Positions 31,171 through 38,876 of a stretch of 64,000 bases of DNA are shown one piece after another (position 1 is the stretch's first letter; each line of letters starts with the position of its first letter). The DNA comes from Pseudomonadota bacterium (GTDB lineage Bacteria; Desulfobacterota; Binatia; UBA1149). A program made the translations under genes and the position numbers. The notes below the pieces were generated by a model that made no database searches, had not been told where the DNA came from, and saw nothing but the letters and a program-made list of their open reading frames with translations. The stretch lies in NCBI GenBank assembly GCA_014382245.1, contig JACNKC010000115.1, positions 1 to 64,000 of the forward strand. The letters run 5' to 3'.

Positions 31171-33252
31171 TCAGGAGCCGGCCTGGGCGCGCAGGTCGCC
31201 GACCAGGCGGCGGATGTCGGCGGCGCGGGGATTCCCTGCGTCGGTGTGCGCGAGCAGGCCTTCCCAGGCGCTGAGCGCGATCTTCCTGTAGCTCCGGGCC
31301 AGGGCCTCGTCGCCGTCCTGGGAGATGCTGGCGGCGTCCTTGAGAAACAGGACGCCGAGTTTGCGCAGCTGCTCGTTACCCTGGTTGCCTTCAAGCCCGG
31401 CCAGCCGGCTTACCGCGCGGGCGGCCTGCGCTGGATCTTGCAGGCGACGGAAAGAGTAAGCCCGCAGCACGAGCACCTCTGGCAGCAGGTCAGCCTGCTC
31501 GGGAAACTGCTGCTCGAAGCCGGCAAGCCTGTCCACTGCCGATAGCTTCAGCGATTCGTTTGCAGCTTCGAGACGGCCCGCCAGCGCGGCGGCCATGACC
31601 GTTGCCCTCGCCTCGAGCGGATCCAGCAGCCCGGCGGTGCCTCGGCCGGCGGACGTTCGCTTGCGGAAGTCGCTGGAGTGCGAGAGAAAACCGTCCAGCG
31701 ACGCGAGAGCGTTTGCCAGCTCGTCGGTATCGGGGTCATCGCCCGGGTCGCGGTCGGTGATCGACTGGAACGCACACTGCGACGATTGGAATCTCGATTT
31801 GAGCATGAAAGCGGCATCGCCGCGCACGCGTGCGAAGGCGTCGGCGCAGTCGAGGTACTGGCGATGGTCGCGGTGCCACTCGCCCATGCGAAACCAGGCT
31901 TCCCATGCGTTCTCGTGGCCGGGCGCGGCGTCGACGAATTCACGGGCGAGTTTCGAGTAGCGCAGGGCGGCGTCGTCGCGCGCCTGTTCGTCGGCCGAGA
32001 GGTACAGCGACTCCGCGGCCTTGAACCTGAACCAGGCGGCCTGTTCCCGGGCTACCGGGCCGGCTCCTTCAAGGGCCTGCCCGAGCTCGGCGATGCTGGC
32101 TTCCCACTTGCCCGAGTGGAACAAGCAGAAGCCGCGTCCAAGCCTGGCCTCGGACAGGTATTCACTGCGTTCAAAGAGAGCATCGTACAGCGGCCGCGCC
32201 CGCGGACAGTCGCCGCGCCTTCTCAGCGAGTCGGCGATGAGCAGCGTCACGAATCCACCGGTGCCGGCCGCCGCCCACTCCAGGGGGTCCTCAACCCCGG
32301 CGTCTACCAGCTGGCTGGCCTTGGAGCGCCAGTAGCCGGGGCTGGCGTGTAATCTCTCGAGCATGCGCGCCGCCTCCAGGCGCATGGAACCCCTGCTGCG
32401 GTCGTCGTAGCGGTCGCGGTATTTTCCAAGGCCCAGCAGCAGGGCCTTGGCCCGAAGGAACGCGGCGCGCAGCCGGTCCTCTTTTTTGCCGGCACCGGCC
32501 AGGAGGCTAGCGGTCTGTCGCAAAGCGGTTTCGATTCGACCGGTGGCCAGGGCGATGTCGGCCACGGCTGCTCGTATGTCGGTGGCTCGCCCGGCAGCGG
32601 GGCTCATTTCGAGCGCGGCATTGAGGTCGTCGAGAGCTTCGTCGTAGCGCTTCATCGCCTTCAGGGCGAGGCCGTGTCCGTAGAGACACTCCAGGACCAC
32701 GGCACGATCGCCCGCACCAAGGAAGTCAGCGAACCCCCGTTCGGCGCGTTGCAGTAGCCGCGTGCGTTGCTGTCCGCGACTTTCGTAGCGCATCGCAAGC
32801 TCGTAGCGAATCCAGTTGAGTCGATAGAGGAGCCTTTGCGCCAACACCTCGCGTTGCTTCCAGGCGGCCCTGTCCTGGGCGGCCTCGAGGTCGCCGTCCA
32901 CCTTTATGACGTCGTCCTGCATGCGCTGGATCACGTCGGTGTACCGCTCGCGTATCTGCTCGACGGTCGACAGCGTTAACTGCGCGGTGGGGCTGTCCAT
33001 CGTTCCGCTGCCAGCCAGGCGGTGGAACAGGTCCACGGCTTTCCCGGCTTTCTCGGTAAGCGATTTTTCCGCATCTTGATTCCAGGCGCGACGGTCGAGC
33101 GACTCGGCCCGGGCCGCCACCGCGCGGAGCTGGCCGCGCAGCTCGTCCAGCTCATCGGCCGCCGCGATTCCCGGCAGCAGCGGCAGCGCCGTCAACACGG
33201 CCGCCACGATCACGACAGCCAACGCGGCGCCAGTTCGAGGCGATGGCTTCAC
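31171..33252 (-). CDS. Large TPR-repeat exported protein linked to Exb/Tol genes
   Basis: Signal-like VKPSPRTGAALAVVIVAAVLTALPLLPGIAAA then repeated TPR-like helices; GTG start overlaps upstream exbD stop. Confidence 0.82.
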   Translation of the reverse strand: MKPSPRTGAALAVVIVAAVLTALPLLPGIAAADELDELRGQLRAVAARAESLDRRAWNQDAEKSLTEKAGKAVDLFHRLAGSGTMDSPTAQLTLSTVEQIRERYTDVIQRMQDDVIKVDGDLEAAQDRAAWKQREVLAQRLLYRLNWIRYELAMRYESRGQQRTRLLQRAERGFADFLGAGDRAVVLECLYGHGLALKAMKRYDEALDDLNAALEMSPAAGRATDIRAAVADIALATGRIETALRQTASLLAGAGKKEDRLRAAFLRAKALLLGLGKYRDRYDDRSRGSMRLEAARMLERLHASPGYWRSKASQLVDAGVEDPLEWAAAGTGGFVTLLIADSLRRRGDCPRARPLYDALFERSEYLSEARLGRGFCLFHSGKWEASIAELGQALEGAGPVAREQAAWFRFKAAESLYLSADEQARDDAALRYSKLAREFVDAAPGHENAWEAWFRMGEWHRDHRQYLDCADAFARVRGDAAFMLKSRFQSSQCAFQSITDRDPGDDPDTDELANALASLDGFLSHSSDFRKRTSAGRGTAGLLDPLEARATVMAAALAGRLEAANESLKLSAVDRLAGFEQQFPEQADLLPEVLVLRAYSFRRLQDPAQAARAVSRLAGLEGNQGNEQLRKLGVLFLKDAASISQDGDEALARSYRKIALSAWEGLLAHTDAGNPRAADIRRLVGDLRAQAGS

Positions 33253-33710
33253 AGGCGCGGCGCCATCCCCGTGGTGCCGCTGCGCGAAGAAAGCGGAAAG
33301 ACCACGTTGGCCAGCGACAGGCGCAGGCACTGGTTGTAGAGGCGGATGACGTGTTCGTAGGGAATCGAGGCAGAGGCATCGATGACCACCAGTGATTGCT
33401 CGGGGATGCCCTTCAAGTGCTCAGCCACGGCAGCGAAGTCAGCCGCGGGCCAGTCATCGATGAAGTACTGCACGCTCTCGCCGGCGTGGACCAGGCGCAC
33501 GATGGTTTCTTTTTCCTGCAGCTTCAGGTCGAAGCGCTTCTCTTCCATTTCGCCACCCATGGCGAGCTTTGAAGTCAGCAGGCCCTCGACGGTCGCCAAG
33601 GAAATGGTGAACAGGAAATAGGTGAGCAGCAGGAACACGCAGTCGATCAGCGGCGCCATGTGGAGCTCGCCCGATCCGCTACCGGGGCGCGATGTTTTTG
33701 GTCGACGCAA
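33249..33710 (-). CDS. ExbD/TolR-family protein (copy 2)
   Basis: MAPLIDCVFLLLTYFLFTI single TM with conserved Asp. Confidence 0.85.
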   Translation of the reverse strand: MRRPKTSRPGSGSGELHMAPLIDCVFLLLTYFLFTISLATVEGLLTSKLAMGGEMEEKRFDLKLQEKETIVRLVHAGESVQYFIDDWPAADFAAVAEHLKGIPEQSLVVIDASASIPYEHVIRLYNQCLRLSLANVVFPLSSRSGTTGMAPRL

Positions 33711-33714
33711 GGCC

Positions 33715-34155
33715 CTACCTCTGCTCCACGTTGTCGGCGGCCTGCAGGGCGGCGAGGCTCACGTCGGTGACCCCGGCGTCGGCAGCCATCCGCATCACTG
33801 CCTGTACGTTCTCAAAACGACTCGAGCGGTCGCCGCGTACTACGATTTCCAGTTTACGATGCTCGCTGGCCTCTGCCTTGCGGGCCTCGATGTAGCGGTA
33901 CAGTTCAGCCCTTGACCGTTGTACGCCCGACACCAGGTACACGCCTTCGCCCGACACGTTGACGGTCACGAGCTCAACGCGCTCGTCGGTTACCTCGCGG
34001 GCCTGGTCGGCGTTGGGCAGCTCAATGGTTTCTTCTCCTGCCTGGCCGAAACGGATCGACATGATGAAGAAGGTTATGAGTAGAAAGGCCATGTCTATCA
34101 TCGCGGTCGCTCGAAATGAGATCGCCCTCGGCCGATGTGAGTGAGCCCCTTTCAC
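33715..34155 (-). CDS. ExbD/TolR-family protein (copy 1)
   Basis: ATAMIDMAFLLITFFIMSIRFGQAGEE; EIVVRGDRSSRFENVQAVMRMAADAGVTDVSLA. Confidence 0.92.
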   Translation of the reverse strand: MKGAHSHRPRAISFRATAMIDMAFLLITFFIMSIRFGQAGEETIELPNADQAREVTDERVELVTVNVSGEGVYLVSGVQRSRAELYRYIEARKAEASEHRKLEIVVRGDRSSRFENVQAVMRMAADAGVTDVSLAALQAADNVEQR

Positions 34156-34934
34156 TTGCCGGCGATCCCGTTCCTCAACGGCGACACCGCGTCCTCGGCC
34201 TCGGCCACTACCTCGGCTGACAGTGCGTCGACCCGGTTGCGGAACATGCCGAAAGCATACAAGGAGGGGATGGCCACGATCAGGCCCATGACGGTGGTCA
34301 TCAAGGCTTCGAATATACCGCCCGCGAGCCTGCGAGGATCAACGCCACCGACGGCGACCGATATCTGGTTGAACGAATTGACCATGCCCATCACGGTACC
34401 CAGCAGGCCGAGCATGGGTGCGATGTTGGCGATCATGTTGAGGTGTTCGATTTTTCGCAGCAGCCGACCGGCGTTTTCATCGGCGCTGTCCTCCATCGCC
34501 TTGACGACAGCTTCGTAGCCACGGTCGTGTTCCTTGACACCTGCCGAAACTACGCGACCAAAGAACGAGCTTTCGCCCGAGCCGGTTTTTGTCTGCAGCT
34601 CGGCATAGCGTCCTTCGTCGAGCATCTTGCGCAGGTCCACGCGTTCTTCTTCGGGCATGAGGGTCTTGCGCCTGATCGACAGCGTGTATTCCACGATCAG
34701 GGCGACGGCCACCACCGACAGCAGCAGGATGACGTAGCCCACGATGCCGCCAAACTGCACGAGGTCCATGAGGCTGTAGTTGAGGGCCCCGTTGGCAGCC
34801 TTCGCAGCGCCTTCCTGGGCCGCCGCCGGCGTCGCCGACATCAGGAAAACAGCCGACAGCACTAAGGCGGTGGCGTTGAAGACGGCAGCCTTGCTCACCG
34901 ATCCGGGCGTGATGGAGTTTTTACGCTTGTTCAT
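34152..34934 (-). CDS. MotA/TolQ/ExbB proton channel family protein
   Basis: ANIAPMLGLLGTVMGMVNSFNQI...LAGGIFEALMTTVMGLIVAIPSLYAF; start MNKRKNS with GAGGAG upstream. Confidence 0.93.
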   Translation of the reverse strand: MNKRKNSITPGSVSKAAVFNATALVLSAVFLMSATPAAAQEGAAKAANGALNYSLMDLVQFGGIVGYVILLLSVVAVALIVEYTLSIRRKTLMPEEERVDLRKMLDEGRYAELQTKTGSGESSFFGRVVSAGVKEHDRGYEAVVKAMEDSADENAGRLLRKIEHLNMIANIAPMLGLLGTVMGMVNSFNQISVAVGGVDPRRLAGGIFEALMTTVMGLIVAIPSLYAFGMFRNRVDALSAEVVAEAEDAVSPLRNGIAGK

Positions 34935-34963
34935 GAAAAGGGGCTCCTCTGTTTTTTCGATTT

Positions 34964-36070
34964 TCAGTACACGGCATTGTAACGGTCTACTTCTTTCTGC
35001 CACTGCGAGCCGAAGGCAAAGTAGAGCACCTGCTCGGCCAGTTCTTCGTCGCTGCCGAGGGCGGCCATTTCGCCTCCGCCCGCGCTGGCCATTGCCCGGT
35101 AGCTGCGCCGGACTTCCTGGTAGAATTCGGGCAGGGGCGAGATTTTGTCGGGGGGCTCGCCGTACAGCCAGGTGTGGAGTCGGGTCTCGTAGCGTTCGTG
35201 CATGCGGCGGGTCAGGTCGATGGTGCTGAGTACGCCGCCGGTACCGTTGAATTCCCTGGCCAGCGCATCAATGGCGTCGAGATCCGAGGCGTGCGGCGGA
35301 GAGCTGCCAATCACGATGATTACTTTCTTGGACCTGCGTCGCCACGACAGCTCGTCCATGGCGGCTTCGACGCCCTGCCGGACGCCCTCTTCCCAGTCGC
35401 CACCACCGCCGGCTTCGATATCACCGATAAAGTTGCGGATCTTGCTGCCGTGAAAACTGAGATCGGACCAACGAACTACGAAGCGTTCTCCGCGGTCACG
35501 AAAGGCGACTACTCCAATTCGGGCTATCGGCACCAGCTCCTGTATGCGGCCGACCAGCTGGAGGCTGTTGTTCTTTATATCGTCGATGACGTCCTGCATG
35601 CTCGCGGTCGAATCGACCACCAGCGCAACGTCCAGTCCCGACTTGCGCAGGCTGCCCAGGAAGCTACCGAAACGGGCCGAGCGGCTGCCGGTGCTCGCGG
35701 TAGGGTTGTGGCGAGACGACAGGTCGCGCAGCCGATCGGCGCTGGGCATGGGAGCGGCAAAGCTGGCCAGCTCGGGTAGGCGCACGTCCCGGGGCCGCAC
35801 CCTTTGCACCTCGATGGGCTTTATCTCGACCGTTTCAATGAGGTTTTCGAGGTCGGCTTCATCGACGCTTTCTTCCTTGAGCGAAAGATGTACCCGCGTT
35901 TTATCTGATCTCAGCCCCAGGCCGAAGCCTTCTCCGCCAGCCGATATGGTGATCGTGGCCAGCAACAACACCAGCAGGAGGTGGAACAGGGCCGACACCG
36001 TGTAGCCCTCGAGGCGGCGGCGAAGCCCGGTGCTGTGCCTCAGGGCAAGAAAAAAGCGCTTAATGAACAA
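34964..36070 (-). CDS. von Willebrand factor type A domain protein with N-terminal TM
   Basis: LDVALVVDSTASMQDVIDDIKNN (MIDAS-like), RIGVVAFRDRGERFVV, VIIVIGSSPPHASD; probable TTG start at 36070, ORF opens to 36259. Confidence 0.85.
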   Translation of the reverse strand: MFIKRFFLALRHSTGLRRRLEGYTVSALFHLLLVLLLATITISAGGEGFGLGLRSDKTRVHLSLKEESVDEADLENLIETVEIKPIEVQRVRPRDVRLPELASFAAPMPSADRLRDLSSRHNPTASTGSRSARFGSFLGSLRKSGLDVALVVDSTASMQDVIDDIKNNSLQLVGRIQELVPIARIGVVAFRDRGERFVVRWSDLSFHGSKIRNFIGDIEAGGGGDWEEGVRQGVEAAMDELSWRRRSKKVIIVIGSSPPHASDLDAIDALAREFNGTGGVLSTIDLTRRMHERYETRLHTWLYGEPPDKISPLPEFYQEVRRSYRAMASAGGGEMAALGSDEELAEQVLYFAFGSQWQKEVDRYNAVY

Positions 36071-36194: not shown

Positions 36195-37019
36195 ATGGCT
36201 ACGGTAATAACCGACGATTGTATCAACTGCGCCGCCTGTGAGCCGGAGTGTCCGAACACGGCGATCTACGAGGGCGGAGTAGAGTATCAGCACCAGGGCT
36301 CGGCCCACCGGGCGCTGTCCGACGATTTTTTCTACATAATTCCCGACAGGTGCAGTGAGTGTGTTGGTTTTTTTGACGAGGAAGCCTGCGCGGTGGTCTG
36401 CCCCGTTGACTGTTGCATTCCGGATCCCGATCGTCCGGAGACCGAAGTGCAATTGATAGAAAGAGCCCGGATCCTGCACCCCGACGAGAACTTCGGCGAC
36501 AGCTTTCCGTCGCGCTTTTCGGATGACGCCGGTGGGGACGATGCGGGCGAGCCTGCGGCAGAGGCTGGGTCCGCTGCGACTGAAGGCGCGGCGGCTGCGA
36601 CCCCGGCTCCCGCGGCGGCTGCGACCCCGGCTCCCGCGGCGGCTGCGACCCCGGCTCCCGCGGCACCCGTGGTGGAGGCCAGCTCGGTTCTCGACTTCCC
36701 GGTGCCCGTGCTGTGCCGGAGCTGCGAGGGTGAGTACGAAGTAGACTTCAGGTTTCTTACCCCCGGTACCGTGCTGCGTTGCCCGCTCTGCCAGGCTTCG
36801 TTCAGTCCTGGCCAACGGGTGTTCCTCGAAATCTCGCGTAGACTCGACCGCTACGTTGACTTGATGAACGCGGAGGTTGACCGCCACGAGTCGGCGGTCA
36901 AGGACGAGGTCGAGAGCCACGAGGCCAACATAGCCGATATCAAGGAAGCCTCTGCTGATGAGCTGCGGCGTATAGTCGAGTCGCTGCTGGAACGCCCGCG
37001 GCGGTCCATGTTCGGCTGA
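36195..37019 (+). CDS. 2[4Fe-4S] ferredoxin / Ala-Pro linker / zinc-ribbon / coiled-coil fusion protein
   Basis: MATVITDDCINCAACEPECPNTAIYEGG...CSECVGFFDEEACAVVCPVDCC; (AAATPAPA)n; LCRSCEGEYEVDFRFLTPGTVLRCPLCQASF; charged helical C-terminus. Confidence 0.88.
   Translation: MATVITDDCINCAACEPECPNTAIYEGGVEYQHQGSAHRALSDDFFYIIPDRCSECVGFFDEEACAVVCPVDCCIPDPDRPETEVQLIERARILHPDENFGDSFPSRFSDDAGGDDAGEPAAEAGSAATEGAAAATPAPAAAATPAPAAAATPAPAAPVVEASSVLDFPVPVLCRSCEGEYEVDFRFLTPGTVLRCPLCQASFSPGQRVFLEISRRLDRYVDLMNAEVDRHESAVKDEVESHEANIADIKEASADELRRIVESLLERPRRSMFG
36591..36662 (+). repeat. 24-bp in-frame tandem repeat, 3 exact copies
   Basis: GCGGCTGCGACCCCGGCTCCCGCG x3 encoding AATPAPAA. Confidence 0.95.
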
Positions 37020-37040: not shown

Positions 37041-38876
37041 TTGCACTCTGATATATACAAGTTACTTCTCGAAAGTCCCGATGAGGGCAACCCGGCTCGC
37101 CTGCTGCGACATGTATTCCCCGGTAGCGGTGAGGACACCGAGTTCGGCCGCAACTTTCTTCACCGCTTGCTGAGCGACGACGCACGTTTCAGCAAGGACA
37201 GCGACAGCGGCGACTGGAAGGCGGACACCGACAACCACTTCAGCAGGGATTTTTCGCGTGTGCCGTTTGTCGTGGTCGACCTCGAGGGAACAGGCAACAG
37301 CCCGGGCCGCGGGGGCGTCACCGAGGTGGGCGCGGTGAGCTACACTGGCGGCGAGATCACCGGCAGGTTTGAACAGCTGGTGAACCCGGGATCGCCTATC
37401 CCCCCTTACGTTTCGCGCATCACCGGCATCACCGATGAAATGGTCGCCGACAAGCCTCCCTTTGCAGAGGTGCTGGCCGACTTCGTCGAGTTTGCCGGCG
37501 ACGCGGTGCTGGTGGTGCACAACGCGGCCTTCGACGTGACCGTGCTCGATACCGGCTGCCGCCAGCTACTCGGACGTTCGTTGGACTTGCCCTACCTGTG
37601 CACCGTGGAGCTGGCCAGGCGCACCTGGCCCGAGCTGAGGCGCGTGGCGCTTGACTACCTGACCGAGCACTTCGAACTCAAGGCCGACGACAGGCACCGC
37701 GCGTTGGCCGACGCTGAGGTCACGGCCGGTGTGCTCGGCAAGTTCGTTGAAGACATGAGGGGGCGGGGCGTGTCGACCATAGAAGGGGCGCTGGCCCTGC
37801 TCGACGAAGAAGAGCCCCGACCTCGTCACGAGATAAATGTCAGCCAGCAGTGTCTCGAGGCGCTACCACGCGGACCGGGCTGTTTCAGGATGATCGACGC
37901 GGGCGGCGATGCGCTGTACGTGAGCCGGTCGGACAACGTGGCCGAGGCCGTGCTGCCGTGGTTCGTGGGTGCGCCGCATCTCAGCGACCGGCAGATGGGC
38001 ATGGCAGCCAGCACCCGTGACGTGGTGGTCAAGGCGGCGGGCTCCGAGACCGAGGCGGCCATGATAGAGGCCGAGCACGTGCGGCGGTACGAACCGACCT
38101 ACAACCGTGGCAGTAAGCATCTTCCGCGACCACACTTCCTGCGGGTCACGCTTGAAGATGAGTTCCCGGCCGTCTACGTAGCTCCGAGGCTGCGGGCCGA
38201 CCGGTCCCTTTACCTCGGGCCGTTCGGGACACCCGGGCTGGCCGAAGAGGCGGCGCGCTTGTTTGCGGCGCGTTTCGGTCTTCGCACCTGTGCCGGCGAG
38301 CTCGATGTATCGACGGATTTCAAGGCCTGCGAGCTGAAGGGGAAGGGTCGCTGTTCGAGCCCCTGCGACGAAACCGTTGATTCCCAGTCTTACGCGCAGC
38401 AGGTGCAGGAGTTCAGGGCAGCACTCGACGATGACGCCTTCGACGTGGAGGAAGTGCTCGGCAAATCTTCGAGACGCCGCTCGCGCAGGAGTTCGGCTTC
38501 GCGCATAGCGCGCGTTCACCGCAAGCAGCCCCTGCAGTGGTACGGCCAGCATTTTCTCGCGGTGTTGCCCGCTCTCGATGGTGGCAGGATGGTGTACGCG
38601 GTTGCCTGGGGACGGCTCGCGTCGACGTTTACCCTTCGAGCTGCCAGCGACGTTGAAAAACTTGAGAAGTGGTTCGAGGCTCTGGGTAGCGAACCCCCGG
38701 ATGGGCGCATGATGGGCAAGGTGGCCGTGTCCACGAGCATACTGGCCGACTGGGCCGTAAAGCATGGGGGCCGGGACGGCAGCCGGGACGGGGAAAGCAT
38801 GCTCAGGCTGGACTTAAGCGACCCCGGGACGATGGCCGACGCTTGCCGGCAGCTCCGGGCCGAGTTGGCCGCCTGA
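37041..38876 (+). CDS. DEDDh (epsilon-like) exonuclease fused to UvrC/Cho-like GIY-YIG region
   Basis: FVVVDLEGTGNSPG...HNAAFDVTVLD...HRALADAEVT exonuclease motifs; GPGCFRMIDAGGDALYVSRS...ETEAAMIEAEHVRRYEPTYN; UvrC-like Cys pattern RTCAGEL...CELKGKGRCSSPC; TTG start. Confidence 0.85.
   Translation: MHSDIYKLLLESPDEGNPARLLRHVFPGSGEDTEFGRNFLHRLLSDDARFSKDSDSGDWKADTDNHFSRDFSRVPFVVVDLEGTGNSPGRGGVTEVGAVSYTGGEITGRFEQLVNPGSPIPPYVSRITGITDEMVADKPPFAEVLADFVEFAGDAVLVVHNAAFDVTVLDTGCRQLLGRSLDLPYLCTVELARRTWPELRRVALDYLTEHFELKADDRHRALADAEVTAGVLGKFVEDMRGRGVSTIEGALALLDEEEPRPRHEINVSQQCLEALPRGPGCFRMIDAGGDALYVSRSDNVAEAVLPWFVGAPHLSDRQMGMAASTRDVVVKAAGSETEAAMIEAEHVRRYEPTYNRGSKHLPRPHFLRVTLEDEFPAVYVAPRLRADRSLYLGPFGTPGLAEEAARLFAARFGLRTCAGELDVSTDFKACELKGKGRCSSPCDETVDSQSYAQQVQEFRAALDDDAFDVEEVLGKSSRRRSRRSSASRIARVHRKQPLQWYGQHFLAVLPALDGGRMVYAVAWGRLASTFTLRAASDVEKLEKWFEALGSEPPDGRMMGKVAVSTSILADWAVKHGGRDGSRDGESMLRLDLSDPGTMADACRQLRAELAA

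Follow-up and report, generated by a model that had tools for sequence, protein, structure and literature searches.

What does an ExbB/ExbD-type motor energise when the genes beside it are not those of a known partner? We address this question for a five-gene minus-strand cluster in a window of 64,000 nucleotides, the whole stretch of DNA analysed. The cluster is carried by contig C39 in the draft genome (2.94 Mb) of an uncultured Candidatus Binatota bacterium and runs from 36070 to 31171 in the order VWA, ExbB, ExbD-a, ExbD-b and TPR.

34964..36070, minus strand: VWA force-transducer candidate, 368 aa, TTG start (Pfam VWA, 4.7e-7)
34152..34934, minus strand: ExbB/TolQ-type proton-channel subunit with an N-terminal signal-like segment (Pfam MotA_ExbB, 4.9e-29)
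33715..34155, minus strand: ExbD/TolR subunit a (ExbD-a), transmembrane (TM) Asp D21 (Pfam ExbD, 8.5e-17)
33249..33710, minus strand: ExbD/TolR subunit b (ExbD-b), TM Asp D23 (Pfam ExbD, 4.5e-12)
31171..33252, minus strand: TPR alpha-solenoid, predicted to be exported and periplasmic, 693 aa (Pfam TPR_2, 5.5e-9)

All five open reading frames are present in the order given by the original prediction, which was made from the sequence alone, and Pfam supports each assignment; several TPR families match the product of the last gene, the best at 5.5e-9. The ExbB frame is open from 35003, with ATG 34934 as its likely start, which leaves a gap of 29 nt after the VWA gene, and 4 nt separate ExbD-a from ExbD-b. 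The predicted 4-nt start/stop overlaps are found at the other two junctions, both as GTGA: ExbB/ExbD-a (34155/34152) and, if the TPR gene starts at GTG 33252, ExbD-b/TPR (33252/33249). The two ExbDs had been called distinct, each keeping the TM aspartate; the pair is 20% identical, and the residue is present in both (D21 and D23). As for the TPR protein, described as exported and 719 aa long, export stands and the length does not. A comparison of N-termini of relatives shows that GTG 33252 gives a clean Sec signal, and the gene most likely starts there rather than at 33330.

We then considered how the VWA protein could be connected to the motor. Its single TM helix, RRRLEGYTVSALFHLLLVLLLATITIS, contains the docking-motif residues S26, H30 and L37. 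Aligned by eye, S-x3-H is common to this helix, E. coli TolA (SAVLH) and E. coli TonB (SVCIH), and the Leu that lies at +11 from the Ser in TolA and TonB is likewise found in the window protein. Among 41 aligned proteins (that of the window and those of class relatives), H30 is invariant (41/41), S26 is Ser in 40 and position 37 is mostly Leu, with the remaining TM positions variable. A strand-like segment after the helix (VHLSL in the window, INVKIVE in relatives) resembles by eye the motor box of TonB (ISVTMVT) and TolA (IDAVMVD); the lone AF2 chain shows no strand there. In the AF2 models, all of single chains, the VWA protein comprises the TM helix (14-44), a disordered linker (45-130; pLDDT low, 36-51 in most blocks) and a vWA domain (131-367; pLDDT mostly about 90 or higher). 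Vwa and integrin beta I domains were the Foldseek matches of this domain (E 5e-10). The DSTAS that had been read as MIDAS-like is the first MIDAS loop, D-x-T-x-S, and is nearly invariant (D153 in 41/41, T155 in 39/41, S157 in 41/41). Metal binding is plausible from these residues, and metal-dependent gripping is only putative because loops 2 and 3 are atypical (GGGDW, with D225 in 36/41, and then GSSPPH). An SxxxH anchor of the TonB/TolA type, with a disordered linker behind it and a vWA domain at the C-terminus, gives good support to the earlier suggestion that the VWA protein is an energised partner, and we consider it probable that the protein is a motor-coupled arm.

Such an architecture has recently been predicted, independently, in other phyla. 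Williams-Jones et al. 2025 (PMC12204202, section 8, Fig. 4a,b) described a family of vWA force transducers with an SHLS TM motif, a disordered linker of ~100 residues and a C-terminal vWA domain, whose genes adjoin tolQ, a heterologous tolR pair and a TPR gene, a gene set found in the PVC group. The authors docked a vWA transducer to its motor with AF3 and suggested a role in gliding; as of that paper, no deletion phenotype had been reported. (AglZ/AlgZ is named in section 8 as a vWA gliding protein; the title of the cited paper has CglB, and the name is probably a slip.) The window has the same five kinds of gene, an SHLS-type TM helix (with Thr41 in place of the final Ser), a linker and a vWA domain. 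It differs in that VWA comes first and TPR last, and in that Binatota also possess a second motor lineage, in which ExbD is single or occurs as two near-copies. A second family in the same paper, TPH-vWA, likewise joins a vWA domain to a TM helix and neighbours TolQ, but it lacks SHLS and tolR and carries the TM Asp itself; in the window, the ExbDs are separate proteins and the helix has SxxxH.

The window can also be linked to the published family by sequence, through two Phycisphaerales loci (L142 and L144) with the published order TPR-ExbB-ExbD-ExbD-VWA. Their VWA proteins are homologous to that of the window (E about 1e-47) and have SLVFH and SLIIH in the TM helix; S-x3-H is likewise present in the VWA sequences of loci L136 and L137. 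The sequence link to PVC members rests on the two Phycisphaerales loci, Tichowtungia having been left out of the comparison. The claim of an undescribed system thus fails, since the same architecture and gene partners are already in print. The cluster belongs to this recently predicted kind, in a phylum that goes unnamed in the main text of PMC12204202, whether as Binatota or as UBP10; the supplement of that paper may list members.

Next, we asked how far the module is conserved. Scanning a class sample with two peptide patterns revealed the VWA gene in at least 45 of 58 genomes, a lower bound, the genomes being mostly drafts; the window protein is 98% identical to that of UBP10/Candidatus Binatota genome UBA1149. 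When 41 VWA loci were read out, ExbB was adjacent in 39, ExbD in 39 and TPR in 36, and all three lay within 5 kb of VWA on the same strand in 36. This co-occurrence is far beyond chance. The orders in Binatota and Phycisphaerales loci are VWA-ExbB-ExbD-ExbD-TPR, VWA-ExbB-ExbD-TPR, ExbB-ExbD-VWA-TPR, VWA-TPR-ExbB-ExbD, ExbB-ExbD-ExbD-VWA and TPR-ExbB-ExbD-ExbD-VWA. Non-conservation of gene order in relatives had been named as a sign against a functional unit. The order is indeed reshuffled, yet the content is kept in 36/41 loci, and content kept through at least five gene orders argues for a unit rather than against it. Flanking genes are not conserved beyond close relatives, and thus the five genes are the unit; receptor, TolA, TonB and Pal are not part of it. 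Some Binataceae have motor and VWA without an adjacent TPR gene, or VWA alone (L080, L083), so that the TPR protein may be unnecessary or come from another locus. Extra VWA genes without an adjacent motor (L080, L083 and L115, of Binatota family f12 or Binataceae type) keep the SxxxH helix and look as if several arms shared one motor, like multiple TonBs; some of these loci end at contig ends. A Binatota-type vWA motor cluster also occurs in an entry titled Klebsiella pneumoniae (CAMBFS010000071.1), a title that looks like that of a mislabelled metagenome bin.

In a tree of 98 ExbB/TolQ proteins, the VWA-linked ExbBs branch apart from TolQ and ExbB (M. xanthus AglR and Tichowtungia sequences were left out of the trees). 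Type I motors (support 98/88) comprise the window, seven other Binatota-type loci, L136, L167, L168 and L170 from outside the class, and the two Phycisphaerales loci; the window ExbB thus groups with Planctomycetota. Type II motors (100/97) account for 46 VWA-linked rows and most of Binatota. A third VWA-linked group is small, consisting of the pair L137 and L171. The row L061_4601, though labelled VWA, represents a second and distant motor that happens to lie near a VWA locus. Since branches are long, the deep branching order is unsure. Type I loci encode two unlike ExbDs (17-30% identical) and type II loci one ExbD or a near-copy pair (56-69% identical), most Binatota systems having a single ExbD. 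The TM Asp is retained in the ExbDs of both types, and the TM motif is found in all type I relatives. Both types occur together in two genomes (G050 and MAG Co_bin.149), in each of which the VWA, ExbB and TPR proteins of a locus fall with their own type. As the VWA and TPR trees match locus type, arm, motor and TPR are inherited together within Binatota. In the same two trees, Binatota type I is not united with non-Binatota type I, and motor and arm may therefore have had different deep histories. Cumulatively, what is new here is the following: 1) the module is common in Binatota; 2) its order is reshuffled while its content is kept; and 3) it has two main motor lineages, a structure that we have not found described.

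A motor with one TolQ-like and two TolR-like subunits, together with exported TPR proteins in the wider Glt machine, is also known as AglRQS of Myxococcus xanthus (PMC3169522). By this likeness the cluster would drive surface motility or secretion, with TolQ and two TolRs moving envelope cargo and the VWA and TPR proteins acting as cargo adaptors, in keeping with the gliding role suggested in PMC12204202. We regard this as unlikely. AglRQS, likened here by gene content, is a separate three-gene cluster lacking a vWA transducer, and no vWA protein is mentioned in its description (PMC3169522). Moreover, a single ExbD is present in most Binatota systems, no further motility gene is co-conserved with the cluster, and motility goes unmentioned in the Binatota genome survey (PMC8262859), as do Tol-Pal, TolQ, ExbB and outer membrane.

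The TPR protein was examined for clues to its function. A lipobox is absent from it and from most inspected relatives, and the protein is therefore probably soluble and periplasmic. Its AF2 model is all helical (pLDDT 90.6). Solved relatives were discarded as a guide, as they are generic TPR solenoids with TM below 0.4; matches to a Campylobacter flagellar periplasmic scaffold (9hmf) are of equally generic quality, and the structures thus give no functional lead. That the TPR protein is a direct partner is plausible, and as a direct ligand of the VWA protein it has, in our judgement, a little less than an even chance. Vwa and TPR proteins also occur together in Bat operons, and BatB (3ibs) is among the Foldseek matches of the VWA domain. 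The pair could on this ground be a sensor or assembly factor gating the motor, a Bat-operon-like module attached to a proton channel, rather than a puller. This is quite improbable given that the strictly conserved SxxxH is a hallmark of force transducers, and no link between Bat proteins and ExbB/ExbD is known.

In addition to the partners encoded in the cluster, we looked for canonical ones. The original prediction saw no TonB, TolA, TolB, Pal or receptor gene at the locus and proposed a genome-wide search for tolQRA and tonB. None of these genes adjoins the cluster; tolQRAB and pal lie on contig C129, and C49 and C60 each encode an ExbBD-TonB system, accompanied on C60 by a TonB-dependent receptor. 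TonB_C matches in the genome are confined to C60, C49 and C129. Among relatives, no TolA or TonB gene is co-conserved with the cluster. Like Tol-Pal, the cluster has motor subunits and a single-TM transducer with SxxxH and a long linker, but a vWA hand takes the place of the TolA C-terminal domain and TolB and Pal are missing. It shares motor and docking motif with ExbBD-TonB and differs in lacking a TonB C-terminal domain and a receptor. It is thus highly improbable that the cluster is a duplicated Tol/Ton motor energising a TolA or TonB from elsewhere in the genome, with the VWA and TPR proteins as accessory regulators: ExbB/ExbD homology and the ability of TolA and TonB to use each other's motor (PMC12204202) speak for it, but the VWA protein carries its own motor-docking motif, the cluster ExbB belongs to a lineage apart from TolQ and ExbB, Tol-Pal and Ton are already at hand in the genome, and no gene for TolA or TonB travels with the cluster among relatives.

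Several further candidates were set aside. A beta-propeller-like protein near the cluster (P0009, 28355-29626, plus strand) shows a weak match to the TolB propeller (2e-8), scoring 33.6 bits where the cut-off is 343. It is not the TolB of this genome: it lies on the opposite strand to the cluster and is kept in only four near relatives, and the genuine TolB is on C129. For a Zorya defence system (ZorA/ZorB), a PADLOC search with E values up to 1 found nothing, and the ExbB/ExbD genes of a Fibrobacter paper form a TonB-family cluster different from that of the window. The C60 locus (L165) of the same genome, with DUF3450, a long TtpC-like ExbB, ExbB, ExbD, TonB, TPR and a TonB-dependent receptor, is a TonB2/TtpC-type system.

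We consider it likely that the cluster encodes a dedicated machine of the vWA force-transducer kind driven by the proton motive force (PMF). Judged from sequence, it would most likely use the PMF to pull, by way of the vWA domain and the TPR solenoid, on a partner in the periplasm or outer membrane. By homology, the motor would consist of five ExbB subunits around a pore occupied by the unlike pair ExbD-a and ExbD-b, in a 5:2 ratio. The motif suggests that the VWA helix docks on the motor exterior through Ser26 and His30, at the site used by TonB and TolA. The linker of ~85 residues, beginning with the motor-box-like segment, would be tugged by the periplasmic domains of the ExbDs, and the C-terminal vWA domain would replace the TonB/TolA hand in gripping a partner. 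The most likely target would be the co-encoded TPR solenoid itself or some component of the envelope presented by it; put more broadly, the target may be TPR or an outer-membrane/peptidoglycan partner. With each proton-powered cycle, a complex in the periplasm or outer membrane would be pulled or remodelled, and the machine would act in parallel with Tol-Pal and Ton and not as their replacement. A more specific version, which we hold to be doubtful, is that the type with two unlike ExbDs is mechanically distinct: an ExbD-a/ExbD-b heterodimer rotor would drive a vWA hand that depends on metal and works on a TPR track in the periplasm, for an envelope process other than Tol, Ton, gliding or secretion, and would coexist in some cells with a single-ExbD vWA machine.

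If the dedicated vWA machine is real, a vWA-hand class of PMF-powered envelope machine stands beside Tol and Ton, and diderms have a new way to work at the outer membrane. Binatota is a phylum in which most members carry the vWA motor module, and its data indicate that the module of motor, arm and TPR outlasts gene reshuffling, with lineages sometimes found in one cell. Lineage structure and module conservation should make partner prediction and the choice of a model organism easier.

Two further genes of the window are on the plus strand. The first (36195-37019), divergent from the VWA gene, encodes a YfhL-like 4Fe-4S ferredoxin domain joined by an extended Ala/Pro linker to a zinc-ribbon-like segment at the C-terminus. 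The product of the second (37041-38876) combines a DnaQ-type exonuclease and a UvrC-like region in one fusion protein, which PRK07883-type models match below their cut-off.
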